Assembly: GCF_900109915.1 (NCBI RefSeq)
Contig: NZ_FOBU01000001.1
Coordinates: forward strand, 1,821,004 to 1,885,003
Length of the DNA: 64,000 bases
Direction: 5' to 3'
DNA from: Luteibacter sp. UNCMF331Sha3.1
GTDB lineage: Bacteria; Pseudomonadota; Gammaproteobacteria; Xanthomonadales; Rhodanobacteraceae
Of the stretch, positions 16,597-22,622 are shown piece after piece. The translations under genes and the position numbers were made by a program. The notes beneath the pieces are model-generated. The model worked only from the letters and a program-made list of their open reading frames with translations. It searched no databases and was not told the origin of the DNA. The stretch's first letter is position 1; every line of letters starts with the position of its first letter.

Positions 16597-16612
16597 CGTG
16601 ACGCACGTCACA
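16597..16612. promoter_or_regulatory. CRP/Clp-type binding site between lysR and TIR gene
   Basis: The sequence CGTGA-CGCACG-TCACA matches the CRP/Clp consensus TGTGA-N6-TCACA at 9 of 10 positions, with a GTGA/TCAC inverted repeat. It lies 104 nt before the TIR gene start and 103 nt from the divergent LysR start, inside a 222-nt intergenic region, so it could control either gene. In Xanthomonadales the protein binding such sites is Clp. Confidence 0.6.
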
Positions 16613-16716
16613 TAAATTGGTGCTAGCGTAAATGGGCAACCGTCAGGGTCCGGCTGCCAACGCCCGACCTCCACGCCGCGTGGAGGCCGACACTCGTGCG
16701 AAGGAGCGCCAGGCCC

Positions 16717-18927
16717 ATGGGAACGACGCGTGTGACGACTCAGGCTTCCGTGGTTCCGGCATGCCGGTACCGCGCCTTCGTCAGCTACAGCCACCGGGAC
16801 GAGTCCTGGGCGCGCTGGCTGCACCGGGCGCTGGAAACCTACGCGATACCGCGCCGCCTGGTCGGGCGCGCGACGAGGTTCGGCCCCATACCGCGACGCC
16901 TCGCGCCGATCTTCCGCGACAGCGACGAGCTGGCGAGCACGAGCGACCTCAGCGCGGCGGTGAGCGAGGCGCTGACGCAATCGTCCAGCCTGATCGTGAT
17001 CTGTTCGCCGGACGCCGCGGCGTCGCGTTGGGTGGACGAGGAAGTCCGCACGTTCCGCCGCCTGGGCCGCGGCGACCGCGTCTTTTGCCTGATCGTCGCG
17101 GGCGAACCGAACGCCAGCCTGATCGCGGGGCGGGAGAGTGAGGAATGTTTCGCGCCGGCCCTGCGCGAGCGCTGGGACGCGGACGGCGACGGCGCACCGG
17201 ATAGCGTCGAGCCGATGGCCGCCGACGTGCGGCCTGGCAAGGACAGCAGGGCCGACGCGAAGTACCGCCTGGTCGCGGGCATGCTCGGCATCGAACTCGA
17301 TGCGCTGAAACGACGCGACTACCAGCGCCGCGCCCGGCGCGCGGTGGTGCTGGCGTCGGCGGCGGCGGTGGTCATGGCCATCACCACGGCGCTGGCGGTA
17401 CAGGCCTGGGTGGCGCGCAGCGCCGCGGAACGACGGCAGAAGGAGGCCGAGGATCTGGTCGCGTTCATGCTCGGCGACCTCAACGACAAGCTCGCCCAGG
17501 TCGCTCGCCTCGACGTGATGGCGGCGGTCGACGATCGCGCCATCCGTTACTTCCAGGCCCAGCCGCCCGACGAGGTCGGCGAGCGCGCGCTCGCGCAGCG
17601 CGTCACCGCACTGGAGAAGATTGGCAGCGTCCGCCTGGACCAGGGCCAGCTCGGCGATGCGCTCGCGTCTTACCGGATGGCGTTGCCGCTCGCGGCGCGA
17701 CTGGCCGGCGGCAAGCCGACGGACCCGGAGAGCCAGCGCCTGTTCGCCGAGGTGCATGCGTTCATCGGCGTCGTGTACTGGCGGCAGGGTCGGCTGGACG
17801 AAGCGCAGCAAAGCTACGCGGCATCGCAGGCGGTGCTCCAGCGCGCACTCGAGCATGCCGCCGACGATCCGGCGTTGACGTTCCAGCTGGCGCTGGTGGA
17901 CAACAACATCGGGCACGTCATGGAGATGCGCGGTCAGCTCGACGACGCCGACGTGCAATACCGTCGCATGCTGGTGCTGATGCGACGTCTCGTGGACACG
18001 CAGCCGGGCAATGGCGAATGGGCCGAATCGCTCGGCTCCGCCTACAACAACCTCGGCAAGCTCGCGCTCATGCGCGGCGACCTCGGCGACGCCATCGCCA
18101 AGTATTCGCTCGACGAGCGCCTGCAGGCGCGGCTGTCGAAGGCGGATCCGCGGAACATCGACCGCCGCGGCAACCTCATCACGGTGCAGGCGATCCTCGG
18201 GCGCACGCAGGCGCTGGCGGGCGACGTCGCCTCCGGCATGGAACGCCTGCAGCGCTCGGTCGACGAAGCCACGGAACTGGCGGCACTGGACCCGAGCAAC
18301 ACCGACCTGCAGGAACAGATCGCGCTGTACGGCACGCAGCTCGCGCGCCTGCGTCGTCTCTCCGGCGACCTTCTCGCCGCGGTGCGGCTGTCGACGAAGT
18401 CCGAGGCGATCTTCACGCAGCTCACGCGAAAGGACCCGACGAATACCGCGTGGCAACGGGAATACGCCGAAACCCTGACCGAGCGCGCCGCGCAGTCGCG
18501 CGCACTGGGCGACGTGGCGATCGCGCGTCAGCAGGCGCAGTCGGCCCTCCGCCTGCTGATGCCATTACGCGAGAAGCAGCCCGACGATCGTGCGACGGTG
18601 CTCGCGGTGGCGACCGCCCGCCTCGCGCAGGCGGCCGCGACGAACGACGCTGGCGCCGCGCACGCGTTGCGGGTGGACGCGTTCCGCGATACGGCGGCGG
18701 CGAAAAGCGGGAAGGACGATCCGCGCCTGCTCGCCCTGCGCGCCGAGGCGCTGCTCGGACTGGAGCGCAAGCAGGATGCCGCGCCGCTGATCGACCGTCT
18801 GCGCGCCGGGGGTTATCGCGACGTCGCACTGGTCGCCCTGCTTCGGGAGCACGGTGTCGACTACCCGCCGAACGAGGCCTTTCCACGCCAGCTCGCCACG
18901 GCGGACGCCGGAGGACTTGCGCGCTGA
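16717..18927 (+). CDS. TIR-transmembrane-TPR protein
   Basis: A 736-aa membrane-anchored protein. Residues about 18-135 form a TIR domain: YRAFVSYSHRDESWARWL, PIFRDSDELASTSDLSAAVSEAL, and SPDAAASRWVDEEV, where E109 (W+4) sits at the position of the NADase catalytic glutamate. A single TM helix follows at about 209-231, so the TIR domain and the TPR region would lie on opposite sides of the inner membrane. Residues about 280-700 hold repeated TPR-like helices (VDNNIGHVMEMRGQLDDADVQYRRML, LGSAYNNLGKLALMRGDLGDAIAKY). AAGGAG at 16701-16706 supports ATG 16717 over the upstream GTG. Bacterial TIR domains commonly cleave NAD+ to make signals; whether this one does is inferred. A CRP-type site lies upstream. 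Confidence 0.85.
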   Translation: MGTTRVTTQASVVPACRYRAFVSYSHRDESWARWLHRALETYAIPRRLVGRATRFGPIPRRLAPIFRDSDELASTSDLSAAVSEALTQSSSLIVICSPDAAASRWVDEEVRTFRRLGRGDRVFCLIVAGEPNASLIAGRESEECFAPALRERWDADGDGAPDSVEPMAADVRPGKDSRADAKYRLVAGMLGIELDALKRRDYQRRARRAVVLASAAAVVMAITTALAVQAWVARSAAERRQKEAEDLVAFMLGDLNDKLAQVARLDVMAAVDDRAIRYFQAQPPDEVGERALAQRVTALEKIGSVRLDQGQLGDALASYRMALPLAARLAGGKPTDPESQRLFAEVHAFIGVVYWRQGRLDEAQQSYAASQAVLQRALEHAADDPALTFQLALVDNNIGHVMEMRGQLDDADVQYRRMLVLMRRLVDTQPGNGEWAESLGSAYNNLGKLALMRGDLGDAIAKYSLDERLQARLSKADPRNIDRRGNLITVQAILGRTQALAGDVASGMERLQRSVDEATELAALDPSNTDLQEQIALYGTQLARLRRLSGDLLAAVRLSTKSEAIFTQLTRKDPTNTAWQREYAETLTERAAQSRALGDVAIARQQAQSALRLLMPLREKQPDDRATVLAVATARLAQAAATNDAGAAHALRVDAFRDTAAAKSGKDDPRLLALRAEALLGLERKQDAAPLIDRLRAGGYRDVALVALLREHGVDYPPNEAFPRQLATADAGGLAR

Positions 18928-19049
18928 CATGTTTCGATGACGGGCCGCATGCAGCGCGAGGTACTGGCCCGGGGAGCGCGACCGATGGGGCATGAGCATG
19001 CATGCCGCACCACGTATCGGATACCTGCCCACGCATACGGGAGACCATC

Positions 19050-19202
19050 ATGGCCAAACTGCCCAGCGACAACCCGCACGACCGGCGCGCCGCGCCCGAT
19101 GACGACGACGAGCCGAAGGGCGCGCACGAGCGCGCACCGGAAGACCCGGACGATCCGTTGCAGGCCGGCGTGACGAAGAACACCGGCGTGAAGAACAACT
19201 GA
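19050..19202 (+). CDS. Small acidic, disordered protein
   Basis: A 50-aa product (MAKLPSDNPHDRRAAPDDDDEPKG... ending GVTKNTGVKNN) rich in Asp, Pro and Lys with no hydrophobic core. GGGAG precedes the ATG at 8-nt spacing. It lies between the TIR-TPR gene (122 nt upstream) and the SLOG-like gene (87 nt downstream), on the same strand, and is followed by a 26-bp perfect palindrome. A similar Asp/Pro-rich mini-protein occurs at 9770. Function unknown. Confidence 0.55.
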   Translation: MAKLPSDNPHDRRAAPDDDDEPKGAHERAPEDPDDPLQAGVTKNTGVKNN

Positions 19203-19212
19203 CCGTGTCGCC

Positions 19213-19238
19213 TGCGGCGACCGGATCCGGTCGCCGCA
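19213..19238. repeat. 26-bp perfect palindrome downstream of the small acidic gene
   Basis: TGCGGCGACCG, then GATC, then its exact reverse complement CGGTCGCCGCA form an 11-bp stem with a 4-nt (self-complementary) loop. It starts 11 nt after the stop at 19202. No T run follows on either strand, so it is an atypical terminator. It may be an RNA hairpin or a dimeric protein site upstream of the SLOG-like gene. Confidence 0.6.
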
Positions 19239-19289
19239 CGGGTCCCGCGCGCCAGCGCTACCGATGTCCCGTCTTCCCCGGATGCAACC

Positions 19290-20975
19290 ATGATTCCACT
19301 GGTCGTCGGCGTCACCAGCCACCGCGATATCGCCGCGGGGGAGGTCGACGCCATCCGCACCCGCGTTCGCGAATTCTTCGCCCTCCTGCAGGCGGCGTTC
19401 CCGCAGCTGCCCATCGTCCTGCTGTCCTCGCTCGCCGAAGGGGGCGATCAGCTCGTCGCGCGCGAAGCGCTGGCCTGCGGCGCGCGCCTGATGGCGCCGC
19501 TGCCCCTGCCGCCCGATCTCTACCTCGACGACTTCGACGACGCGGCGGTGCGCGAAACGTTCCACGCGCTCTGCGGCGAGGCCGAGGTGGTACTGCTGCC
19601 GCGACTGATGGACAAGCCGCGGCACGCGATCGACGCGCCGGGCGAGGCGCGCGACCGCCAGTACGCGACCGCGGGCGTCTACATCGCAAGCCACTGCCAT
19701 ATCCTGCTCGCGCTGTGGGACGGCAACGACGCAGCGGGCCTCGGCGGCACGGCGCAGATCGTGGATTACCACCTCACCGGCACGCCGCCGGGTCTCATCG
19801 CGCGTCACGCGCATGCGCGGCACGTGCTGGGCGGAGGCAACGAAAGCCTGCTGTACCACGTCGTCTGTTCGCGTACCGATGGCGGCACCGCACCCGGCCT
19901 CCGGCCTTTGGATACCGGATGGCGCACGGGCGACGTACCGGCCCTGCAGGGCCGGATGCCCGACGACTTCCGCGACATGTTCGCGCGCATGGGCGAATTC
20001 AACGCGGAATGCGCGAGCCACGCGGCGCGCATCGGCGCGGCACCGCGCGAACGCCACGGCTCGCCCTGCGAGGCCACGGCGCGGATCGAGGACGTCTTCC
20101 ACGCGGCCGACTGGCTCGCGCTGCACTTCCGCCAGCGTGTGCTGCTGGCGTTGCGGCTCACGTTCACCGTGGCCGCGCTCATGGGCATCGCATTCACGTT
20201 CTACGCGCACCTGCCGTCGAACAACGCGCTGATCTACCTTTTCCTCGTGCTCTTCGCCACGGGCGGCGCCACGGCGCTGATCGCGCATCGCCGTGGCTGG
20301 CACCGCAAATACCTGGACTATCGCGCGCTCGCCGAAGGTTTGCGCATCCAGTCGTACTGGCGACGCGCAGGCATCGTGACGGGGGCGGATCATGAATTCG
20401 CGCACGAGAATTTCCTGCAGAAGCAGAATCTCGAGCTGGGATGGATCCGTAACGTGATGCGGGCCGCGAGCCTGTACCCATCGACGCACCCGGTCGAGCC
20501 CGACGAGACATCGCTGCGCGAAGTCATCGCCGAATGGGTCGGCGAATCGGGAAAATCGGGCCAGTTGCATTACTATGAGCAGAAAACGGTCGAGCGCACG
20601 CGCCTGCACCGCATCACCACCGCCGTCGGCCGCGTCAGCCTCTGGGGCGGCATCGCGATCAGCGTCTTTCTCGCCCTTTTCGCCACCCGGTTGCACGAAG
20701 GCGCCAAGGTCACGCTCGTGACCGTGATGGCCGTGCTGTCGATCGTCGCCGCCGTGCGCGAGGCTTATGCGTATCGCAAGGCGGATCGCGAGCTGATCCG
20801 CCAGTACCACTTCATGCAGCGTATCTTCGCCACGGCGCGCGCGGCGCTGGACCGCACCACCGATCCGGCCCGGCAGCGCGCGATCCTGCACGCGCTGGGC
20901 GAAGCGGCGCTGACGGAACATGCGGAGTGGACGCTCATGCAGCGAGAGCGCCACGTCGAGCACAGCAAGCTGTGA
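19290..20975 (+). CDS. SLOG-like domain fused to SLATT-like 4-TM region
   Basis: A 561-aa protein. Residues about 1-190 look like a Rossmann-type SLOG nucleotide-sensor domain: VVGVTSHRDI at the first strand, LLSSLAEGGDQLVAREAL, and ILLALWDGNDAAGLGGTAQIVDY. Two TM hairpins follow (about 283-306 with 312-332, and 448-466 with 472-492). Each is followed by a charged helical segment (YLDYRALAEGLRIQSYW and YRKADRELIRQYHFMQRIF), the layout of SLATT effector domains. By family knowledge, SLOG domains bind NAD- or nucleotide-derived ligands and SLATT domains are predicted pore-forming effectors. Next to a TIR protein this suggests a sense-and-permeabilise pair, which is inference. No strong ribosome binding site was found for ATG 19290. 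Confidence 0.72.
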   Translation: MIPLVVGVTSHRDIAAGEVDAIRTRVREFFALLQAAFPQLPIVLLSSLAEGGDQLVAREALACGARLMAPLPLPPDLYLDDFDDAAVRETFHALCGEAEVVLLPRLMDKPRHAIDAPGEARDRQYATAGVYIASHCHILLALWDGNDAAGLGGTAQIVDYHLTGTPPGLIARHAHARHVLGGGNESLLYHVVCSRTDGGTAPGLRPLDTGWRTGDVPALQGRMPDDFRDMFARMGEFNAECASHAARIGAAPRERHGSPCEATARIEDVFHAADWLALHFRQRVLLALRLTFTVAALMGIAFTFYAHLPSNNALIYLFLVLFATGGATALIAHRRGWHRKYLDYRALAEGLRIQSYWRRAGIVTGADHEFAHENFLQKQNLELGWIRNVMRAASLYPSTHPVEPDETSLREVIAEWVGESGKSGQLHYYEQKTVERTRLHRITTAVGRVSLWGGIAISVFLALFATRLHEGAKVTLVTVMAVLSIVAAVREAYAYRKADRELIRQYHFMQRIFATARAALDRTTDPARQRAILHALGEAALTEHAEWTLMQRERHVEHSKL

Positions 20976-20982
20976 TGAAACG

Positions 20983-21747
20983 CTACCAGCTGCTTCTGGC
21001 GTATTCCGACTGCGCCAGCCACGCCTCGAATCCTGTCCGGGCGCGGCGCGCATCGTCGCCCGGCAGCAGGGTCCGGTCGTCCACGCGCGCGCCGAAGTAG
21101 GGGGCGTGCGGATCGGTGATCACTTCGCAGGGCGCTTCCATGCTGGTGACGAAGCGGCGGATCAGCTCCGACATGCGCTCGCGCTCGGGGCCGGAGATCT
21201 CCACCGTACCGTTCAGCGGACCCTCGACGGCCAGCTGCGCGATCAGGGCGGCGACGTCGTCCGCCGCGACCGGCTCGATGTACGCGGGCGCGAGCTGCAC
21301 GATCTGGTCGCGCTCGGCCGAGACGATGATGGCGACGAGGAATTCGTAGAACTGCGTCGCGTGCACGATGCTGTATGGGATACCGGATTTCCGGATCTGC
21401 GCGTCCTGGTACCGCTTGCCGCGGAAATAGATGCTGTCGTCGATCCGCTCCGTGCCCACCACCGAAATGGCGATGTGGTGCGTGACGCCCACGAGGCGCT
21501 CGGCCTCGATCAGGTTGTCCGTCCCCTGACGGAAGAAATCGTAGGTTTCCTGTGTGGTGAACGACGTGGCGTTCGTCGCGTCGACGACCACGTCCGCACC
21601 GGCCATCACGTCGACGAGGCCTTCGCCGGTGACGATATCCACGCCCGTCGACCGCGAGGCCACGAGCACCTCGTGACCTTCGCTGCGCAACCGGTCCACC
21701 ACGTGGCGTCCGACGACGCCCTTTCCACCCAGCACGACGATATTCAT
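20983..21747 (-). CDS. NmrA-like NAD(P)-binding SDR protein
   Basis: Atypical short-chain dehydrogenase fold of 254 aa. The dinucleotide-binding motif is at the N-terminus (VVLGGKGVVGRHV, residues 4-16), followed by a basic-residue turn ASRSTG that favours NADP. The central region (HIAISVVGTERIDDSIYFRGKRYQDAQIRKSGIPYSIVHATQF) is characteristic of NmrA/YtfG-type quinone-oxidoreductase or redox-sensor relatives, which lack the usual YxxxK catalytic pair. It lies 8 nt downstream of the 288-aa gene on the same strand, so the two are probably co-transcribed. Substrate unknown. Confidence 0.85.
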   Translation of the reverse strand: MNIVVLGGKGVVGRHVVDRLRSEGHEVLVASRSTGVDIVTGEGLVDVMAGADVVVDATNATSFTTQETYDFFRQGTDNLIEAERLVGVTHHIAISVVGTERIDDSIYFRGKRYQDAQIRKSGIPYSIVHATQFYEFLVAIIVSAERDQIVQLAPAYIEPVAADDVAALIAQLAVEGPLNGTVEISGPERERMSELIRRFVTSMEAPCEVITDPHAPYFGARVDDRTLLPGDDARRARTGFEAWLAQSEYARSSW

Positions 21748-21755
21748 GACTTACC

Positions 21756-22622
21756 TCACGACCCGCCGAGCCACGACGCGACGTTACGGACATAGCGATG
21801 CGTGGCACGCAGCGCATCCGGATGCCGCGCCATGCGATCGCCCGGCGCTTCCGAGACGAACGACGGGCAACCCGCGCCGATATCCCAGTTGTAGTCGGCG
21901 AAATGGTGGAACGTGGACTGCGCGATCGCGCGGCCGCCGTCCGGCGAGCGTTCGAACGCCACCGCGAGGTTGAAGTCGCGACCCGTCGTGAGGCTTCGTC
22001 CACGCAGGATCACGCGGCTGGATGCGTCGCCCGGCGGGGCGCTGATCGCGCCCTCGTGAGGGTGCGACGGCAGGAACCGGATATGGCCGGTGGGCGATTC
22101 CGGGTCGTGCAGCACGGGGTGCGGCGTACCGACCACCTCGACGTCCTGGTAGTCGCCGTTCGCGCCGGAATGGTAATTCGGCCACGAGATCGCCGAGGTC
22201 TCGCGATCGTCGATGCAGTGACGCGACGTATCGGGGTCGAGGTTGTGCGTGTGGAAGTGATGCGCCGCCCCGACGCCGCCGAGCGTGCAGATGGAGCAAC
22301 CGAGGTCCATGTGATCGCGCGTCACCAGCATCGCGCCGCCGTTGCGGCGGAACTGCGAGATGCCGTCGCAGTCGGCGGCCGTCAGGCCGTTGCCGACATC
22401 CACCGCGAATAACCACAGCTGGTCGAAGTCGGTCTCGTGCAGGTGCGACAGGATCTCGTCGTCCGCCGTCACCGCCCCGCGGTTGCGCGCGGTGACGCGA
22501 TAGGCGGGATCGCCGTTCTCGTCGCGGATGCCTTCCAGCAGCGCCTTGAGATGACCGAAGCGACCGATGTGCCAGTCGTCTTCGTCGTGTTCGATGGTGG
22601 TCTGAAGCAGTAGGTTCTTCAT
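21756..22622 (-). CDS. Conserved protein of unknown function, ThuA-like features
   Basis: A 288-aa cytosolic protein without signal peptide or TM segment. The alternating strands and segments such as LWLFAVDVGNGLTAADCDGISQF, GGAMLVTRDHMDLGCSICTLGG and FHHFADYNWD recall the class-I amidotransferase-like ThuA fold. A Cys-rich HMDLGCSIC stretch (residues about 104-112) and several His residues could form a metal or active site. I could not assign a function. The downstream SDR gene follows after 8 nt, and a LysR gene lies 86 nt upstream on the same strand, suggesting a regulator-plus-redox unit. Confidence 0.7.
   Translation of the reverse strand: MKNLLLQTTIEHDEDDWHIGRFGHLKALLEGIRDENGDPAYRVTARNRGAVTADDEILSHLHETDFDQLWLFAVDVGNGLTAADCDGISQFRRNGGAMLVTRDHMDLGCSICTLGGVGAAHHFHTHNLDPDTSRHCIDDRETSAISWPNYHSGANGDYQDVEVVGTPHPVLHDPESPTGHIRFLPSHPHEGAISAPPGDASSRVILRGRSLTTGRDFNLAVAFERSPDGGRAIAQSTFHHFADYNWDIGAGCPSFVSEAPGDRMARHPDALRATHRYVRNVASWLGGS

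Follow-up and report, generated by a model that had tools for sequence, protein, structure and literature searches.

How does a membrane-anchored TIR protein encoded on a Luteibacter chromosome relate to the membrane protein encoded downstream of it, and do the two form a signalling module? The question comes from a sequence-only reading of a 64,000-nucleotide stretch of DNA from the soil bacterium Luteibacter sp. UNCMF331Sha3.1 (the window), which placed three genes on one strand behind a near-perfect CRP/Clp site: one for a TIR-TM-TPR protein, one for an acidic protein of 50 residues and one for a protein that joins a SLOG-like head to four TM helices. The arrangement is as described: the three genes, the last of 561 codons, share a strand 3′ of the site within positions 16597-20975, and the site departs from TGTGA-N6-TCACA by a single mismatch. 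The features are:

16597..16612, no strand assigned: CRP/Clp-like site CGTGACGCACGTCACA, about 105 nt 5′ of the TIR start codon
16717..18927, + strand: TIR-TM-TPR receptor, 736 aa; TIR domain with an invariant W-V-x-x-E, one TM segment and a presumably periplasmic TPR region
19050..19202, + strand: 50-aa acidic protein with a divergent copy of a C-terminal tag, VTKNTGVKNN
19290..20975, + strand: SLOG-SLATT-SLATT protein, 561 aa; SLOG-like head at about residues 1-200 and TM-helix units at about 261-360 and 424-522

The closest named loci to this module are from Luteibacter. Just beyond it, positions 20983-22622 are occupied by an NmrA-like gene and by a conserved gene for a 288-aa protein that matches nothing in Pfam; this pair adjoins the module in several Luteibacter loci, and also the L153 locus, which has no effector.

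The reading that we favour, by a modest measure of confidence, is a chromosomal and probably CRP/Clp-regulated nucleotide alarm that runs from TIR to SLOG, ends in a membrane effector and is tuned by tagged proteins. The TIR-TM-TPR protein would be a membrane receptor with its TIR domain in the cytosol and its TPR array most likely in the periplasm. Upon a trigger, the TIR domain would cleave NAD+ via its conserved glutamate and yield a nucleotide of ADP-ribose type. This product would bind to the effector's SLOG head, and the two SLATT-like TM units would oligomerise and permeabilise the inner membrane, so that the cell stops or dies. Tagged small proteins encoded beside the receptor would set its activity, probably through the TPR array gripping the tag. 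We infer the NADase activity, the ligand, pore formation, tag-TPR binding and the trigger from sequence. SLOG-SLATT proteins, which are predictions in the parts of the literature available to us, would gain a conserved, testable TIR partner.

Receptor and effector

The receptor ORF spans 16696-18927 (743-aa frame). The start is most likely the ATG at 16717, which gives 736 aa and agrees with the homologue at L153. Pfam matches include TIR_2 (1.1e-10), ThsB_TIR (2.1e-8; 34.9 bits vs a cut-off of 21.2) and several TPR models. Residues W112, V113 and E116 (743-aa frame) are invariant in 41 of 41 receptor homologues; E116 is the E109 that the sequence-only reading put at the NADase catalytic position of the TIR domain. 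A single strongly hydrophobic segment separates the TIR and TPR parts. Because basic residues precede this segment, the most likely topology has a cytosolic TIR domain and a periplasmic TPR array, and the TPR part is poor in cysteine (0.22% vs 1.88% in the TIR part), which fits. Over 35 loci, mean identity is lowest in the TPR part (33%) and higher in the effector (52%) and the TIR domain (61%). A phmmer search of the TIR domain against PDB sequences gives one weak match (E=0.65), L6tr, which we take to be a plant TIR. To our knowledge, the sensing targets of bacterial TIR proteins with large repeat regions are mostly unknown.

The 561-aa effector has four TM-like segments past residue 260 and a fifth hydrophobic stretch within the head. 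Its AF2 model (mean pLDDT 84.5, pTM 0.84) features a confident alpha/beta N-terminal domain of alternating strands and helices, together with two TM units of long helices. The sequence-only reading had called the protein SLOG-SLATT, and the two halves of that name fare differently. Over 57 effector homologues, SLATT matches are frequent at E<=0.01 (DUF4231 in 50, SLATT_3 in 35, SLATT_1 in 10, SLATT_6 in 7), and the predicted SLATT-type membrane units are supported across the family; for the window protein alone, the SLATT matches fall below every curated cut-off in Pfam and NCBIfam. The SLOG-like head is borderline. The window effector alone has no SLOG match in Pfam, NCBIfam or PADLOC, and known SLOG families are found in few of the 57 homologues (DprA in 2, YAcAr in 1). 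In an hhalign comparison, residues 1-200 align best, of seven targets, with the relatives' DprA (E=9.2e-4 with a probability of only 22.6, residues 6-126); the six controls, namely TIR, NmrA, LysR, YkuD, GST and a neighbour of unknown function, give 0.05-0.59. It is thus the sequence profile and the modelled secondary structure that suggest a SLOG-type head. No SIR2 or macro match is found in the effector or among the 12 families listed for the 57 homologues. Against PDB sequences, the profile of these homologues (alignment A1) yields only three chance matches (E>6) and that of alignment A3 one match at 0.58. PF10686 is absent from 61 order-level genomes.

Burroughs and Aravind reportedly defined SLOG and SLATT in 2015 and predicted them to be effectors of nucleotide signals. 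The roles proposed here are alike, with SLATT as a nucleotide-responsive pore effector and SLOG as a nucleotide sensor, so far as the available parts of that literature describe them; the tag and the CRP/Clp-like site are found here and not in the accessible portions of later descriptions (PMC9503650, PMC7159879). Thoeris effectors, in the sections available, are of two types, a ThsA with a SLOG domain that binds 3'cADPR and a TM-macro ThsA that is likewise a membrane effector (PMC11204291). The window resembles Thoeris in pairing a TIR protein, which matches ThsB_TIR, with a second protein bearing a nucleotide-binding head. It differs in that the effector has no SIR2 or macro match and joins its SLOG-like head to two SLATT-like TM units, whereas the TIR protein is membrane-anchored with a large TPR region; the tagged protein and the CRP/Clp-like site are further differences. 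In Firmicutes phages, TIR genes also lie beside genes for 2TM SLATT proteins, and SLATT is predicted to be an ADP-ribose-regulated membrane effector, according to the excerpt at hand (PMC9503650). There, however, the 2TM SLATT is carried by phages, while the module in the window is chromosomal and combines a SLOG fusion of 561 aa, bearing two TM units, with a TM-TPR receptor and a tagged protein. SLATT occurs in other conflict systems as well, as stated in the available part of a further source (PMC7159879).

Tagged small proteins

By its conserved C-terminal tag, the acidic 50-aa protein is a third component of the module, which the sequence-only reading had missed and which is seemingly a new observation. 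The consensus, [N/D]-P-x-I-K-N-x-COOH, is common to small proteins that are encoded beside the receptor and have no detectable similarity to one another. The window protein ends in VTKNTGVKNN and its relatives in VTTNPGIKNT, TTSPRIKNN and TKKPGIKPS; it lines up with a Luteibacter set chosen by a tag-like ending. A comparable ORF lies 5′ of the effector in 15 of 15 relatives, in a search that required such an ending. Differences by codon position (0.44, 0.42 and 0.57) give a weak coding signal, and the tag is the better evidence that the ORF is a gene. Neither the tag nor the TIR-TM-TPR/tag/SLOG-SLATT module was described in the literature searched; the gene pair might already be mentioned in the 2015 work of Burroughs and Aravind.

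One or more small genes adjoin the receptor in most receptor loci. The tagged proteins fall into 46-54-aa acidic, approximately 86-147-aa beta-type and other (approximately 130-200 aa) groups, and 54 of them form 11 body clusters by BLAST, a set that includes three L149 proteins repeating L050 (same contig) and the near-identical L065/L066. Four tag positions were partly fixed by the search pattern (P in 54, I in 52, K in 42 and N in 53 of the 54). Two features were free of it: N or D precedes the proline in 48, and exactly one residue follows the final N in 40. For ten tagged proteins, nothing in Pfam or NCBIfam scores better than E=0.008. As modelled by AF2, one beta-type protein is all-beta (mean pLDDT 89); a low-confidence linker leads to its tag, which is drawn as a strand (128-131). 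We considered whether the tag is simply a fixed strand belonging to one fold and discarded the idea, since the short acidic proteins end in the same tag.

The tag is tied to the receptor by several counts. A tag ORF follows 50 of 57 receptor genes under a loose definition and 30 under a strict one (58 genes minus L093, which has no downstream sequence), compared with 8 and 0 on the opposite strand and 6 and 0 for 432 other genes of the loci; some of the 50 loose matches are chance (e.g., L069 11-2149 and L109), as the 8 opposite-strand matches predict. At the DNA level, the tag plus stop codon occurs 24 times in 17 of 117 genomes and its reversed control once. Each of the 24 has an effector gene no more than 5 kb away, and for 23 a receptor gene is at most 1 kb away; this strict pattern does not occur in the genome from which the window comes. 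Searching 197 Rhodanobacteraceae genomes with a profile of the beta-type protein yields 47 genes, spread over 39 genomes. Of these genes, 44 are within 1 kb of the receptor (39 directly downstream on the same strand); two of the remaining three lie beside the effector and one beside neither gene. No beta-type gene was found in 369 class-level genomes, a sample poor in the family. Receptors distant from the effector also have a tagged neighbour in 10 of 16 regions examined, which indicates that the tag goes with the receptor. These regions cover 17 of the 20 receptor matches that have no effector within 12 kb, leaving out the short contigs G162:C99, G138:C252 and G077:C186.

We note some variants. 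At L169 (G051:C4:468497-468913) and L155, a tagged protein still lies beside the effector, and the receptor match is 1.2 Mb away with a tagged neighbour of its own. Loci L050 (1650-2411) and L054 (1987-2940) contain extra tagged ORFs upstream of the receptor, one per locus being largely an Ala-Pro repeat. Signal-peptide-like starts are seen on tagged proteins of L101, L102, L105, L108 and L168, one of which has a lipobox.

What might the tag do? Eukaryotic TPR co-chaperones bind the C-terminal EEVD of Hsp70/Hsp90; by analogy only, the receptor's TPR array would work on that principle if it recognised a short peptide at a C-terminus. An ambitious and, in our estimation, rather unlikely proposal is that TPR-bearing TIR receptors share a C-terminal peptide code, whereby unrelated, fast-changing tagged proteins dock on the TPR array and, as interchangeable subunits with a sensor, decoy or guard role, control TIR-to-SLOG-SLATT membrane death. 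If true, the whole would amount to a modular tagged-ligand immune receptor in bacteria. A signal-peptide-like start is missing in 42 of 45 longer tagged proteins, and without one they could not reach the TPR array if it is periplasmic, which counts against tag-TPR binding, in the alarm reading too. It is quite possible that the tag serves localisation, processing or turnover, or is an edge strand, rather than being a receptor-binding signal. The strand modelled in one beta-type protein, albeit after a low-confidence linker, and the signal-peptide-like start or lipobox of some tagged proteins (L101, L102, L105 and L108) point this way. On the other hand, the tag is shared by the 46-54-aa acidic proteins and by mutually dissimilar ones, so that it is not the strand of one fold, and it is found almost only beside TIR-TPR genes. 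In either case the tag provides a sequence handle on probable partners of repeat-bearing TIR receptors, and TPR peptide binding is testable.

Promoter site, genomic setting and role

The site at 16597-16612 is the only one with one mismatch or fewer in the 64 kb. Upstream of receptor genes, a site with at most two mismatches is present in 32 of 56 cases vs 4.0 expected from mononucleotide shuffles, and a perfect one in 21 of 56 by hand count, often 125-150 nt 5′ of the called start. It is kept in divergent settings and accompanies lone receptor genes (8 of 12 at two mismatches or fewer, three of them perfect), and it is absent 5′ of four TIR-TPR genes of another type. The CRP/Clp-like site thus travels with the receptor, and from its sequence we infer Clp control of the module. 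The Xanthomonas gene xagA is repressed by Clp acting at a TGTGA-type site, and this repression is lifted by c-di-GMP binding, as given in the available part of the report (PMC3528676).

The sequence-only reading had offered the module as a candidate for defence or cell death; the genomic context lends no support to a defence role. None of 82 flanking proteins (of 144 picked, mostly from TIR-TM-TPR loci) matches a PADLOC model at E<=1e-10, and the flanking families, among 25 of 93 Pfam families listed, are mostly metabolic. The placement of the module in a defence island was therefore not supported. PADLOC returns just a generic TPR model (E=0.0069) for the three module proteins, and the seven window proteins scanned, among them two flanking proteins at either end of the module, include no CD-NTase of the kind that marks CBASS. 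Phage records give no match at E<=0.01. Plasmid records give four partial matches in Agrobacterium, all to the SLOG part, and no full copy. The Agrobacterium plasmids are conjugative (NZ_CP039902.1 and three more) and encode a hypothetical protein that matches the SLOG part only, at 33% over residues 6-160. The 82 flanking proteins include one nicotinamide mononucleotide transporter (PF04973), which puts an NAD-precursor gene next to an NAD-type module; the gene probably follows the effector in L042, and L043 and L087 have similar-looking ones.

The distribution of the module is patchy. An effector homologue occurs in 80 of 197 Rhodanobacteraceae genomes, a count that includes a probably spurious match in G091 (E=4e-4), and in 7 of 369 class-level genomes (own genome included; two partial) and 14 of 378 phylum-level genomes (own genome included), mostly as distant or partial matches. 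The congeneric genome G178 (L153) has only the receptor gene, between the same flanks as the module: LysR and YkuD genes at one end, the NmrA-like gene and the one next to it at the other. The effector and the small gene are missing, and the receptor has an in-frame loss of about residues 81-205, including the catalytic glutamate; its TPR part is still open and similar. Joint loss of this kind is expected if the parts of the module work together.

These observations bear on what the module is for, and we keep open whether it serves abortive defence or a cell-state checkpoint. Defence would be suggested by the patchy distribution, the fast-evolving TPR part, the variable tagged proteins and the joint loss, which look like those of a conflict system. 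A tentative but real possibility is that the same signalling chemistry is not directed against phages and constitutes an envelope or nutrient checkpoint, tied to carbon or c-di-GMP via Clp, that limits growth or permeability. The absence of phage-record matches, the absence of PADLOC matches among the 82 flanking proteins, the restriction of plasmid matches to four partial ones, the CRP/Clp-like site that accompanies the receptor and, as far as the accessible text goes, the Clp/c-di-GMP control of xagA in Xanthomonas (PMC3528676) are in its favour. It accounts less readily for presence in 80 of 197 genomes at differing genomic sites, for joint loss in a sister species, and for a TPR part that evolves fast (33% vs 61% for TIR) alongside variable small proteins.

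Association of receptor and effector

The alarm reading further assumes that the ligand passes from the TIR domain to the SLOG head, and the effector's other neighbours are informative here. Among 80 named-genome loci, 64 have a tblastn receptor match (in L077, L103 and L107 to the TPR stretch only) and 16 have no match to the window-type receptor. Another TIR protein adjoins the effector in four of the 16 (L070, L075, L081 and L090, the last TIR-DUF4062), and an nSTAND1-TPR-type neighbour in three (L088, L094 and L095). No signalling neighbour was recognised in the other nine (L041, L058, L060, L085, L096, L098, L100, L104 and L110), several of which have flanks shortened by contig ends. TIR-TPR proteins of another type adjoin the effector in L142 and L144. 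Pfam recognises the non-window TIR types in L070, L090, L142 and L146; elsewhere they were assigned by eye from the N-terminus. By Pfam, the neighbour of a distant effector relative is a SIR2-TIR protein in L146 and a patatin in L145; by eye only, such relatives lie beside patatins (L190, L191 and L193), TIR-like N-termini (L192, L194 and L196) and DUF4062-like proteins (L189 and L197). The window-type TIR profile has no match at E<=1e-3 in ten distant loci. Together with the patatin, nSTAND and DUF4062-like partners, this suggests that the ligand need not be TIR-made.

It is accordingly conceivable, if unlikely, that the TIR domain is a scaffold or switch and that SLOG-SLATT answers another nucleotide, so that no NAD-derived ligand passes between the two. 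Consistent with this are SLOG-SLATT relatives next to nSTAND1-TPR proteins (L088 and L094) and distant SLOG proteins whose neighbours are patatin-like (by Pfam in L145, by eye in L190, L191 and L193); we know of no patatin-like or nSTAND1-TPR protein that makes ADP-ribose derivatives. Against it, W-V-x-x-E is invariant in 41 of 41 homologues, and other TIR types adjoin SLOG-SLATT in L070, L075, L081, L090, L142 and L144.

The linkage of the two genes in relatives, on which the sequence-only reading had staked its case beforehand, is conserved. A receptor homologue occurs in 76 of the 197 family genomes (E<=1e-60). Both genes are present in 74, the effector only in 6, the receptor only in 2 and neither in 115, a co-occurrence with a Fisher p of ~3e-44 that ignores relatedness in a sample largely of one family with non-independent counts. 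Within the 74 genomes, the pair is at most 3 kb apart in 66, on different contigs in 6 and far apart in 2. Of 110 loci with partly shared source genomes, 77 have the receptor match upstream of the effector and on its strand, 8 have it upstream on the opposite strand and 6 have it downstream; the other 19 have none. Distances over 35 loci correlate at 0.75 for SLOG vs TIR and 0.83 for SLOG vs TM-TPR, the species tree being ignored. That the genes adjoin by chance or by co-inheritance of the region is highly improbable, even in a sample mostly of one family whose counts are not independent, because the linkage holds through changes in order, strand and flanking genes, which vary among loci, and reaches other gammaproteobacterial loci at ~42-45% identity.

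For the TIR-to-SLOG alarm we count the catalytic residues, the linkage, the joint loss and the pairing of SLOG-SLATT with more than one kind of TIR, along with the family-wide SLATT matches, the DprA profile match, the AF2 model of the effector, the distance correlations and the precedents in Thoeris and in Firmicutes phages. Against it stand the nine of 16 receptor-less loci without a recognised signalling neighbour and the three with an nSTAND-type one, as well as the sub-cut-off SLATT matches of the window protein, its borderline SLOG head, the metabolic flanks, the lack of phage or plasmid copies beyond the four partial matches and the non-TIR partners of distant relatives.

The nSTAND1-TPR protein may represent another type of sensor that feeds this effector. 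Such a long protein lies beside SLOG-SLATT in L088 and L094 (by Pfam) and in L095, L103 and L107 (by eye). In L094, L095, L103 and L107 it is accompanied by a protein of approximately 480 aa (without a Pfam match in the L094 copy) that is probably exported and appears C-type-lectin-like by eye.
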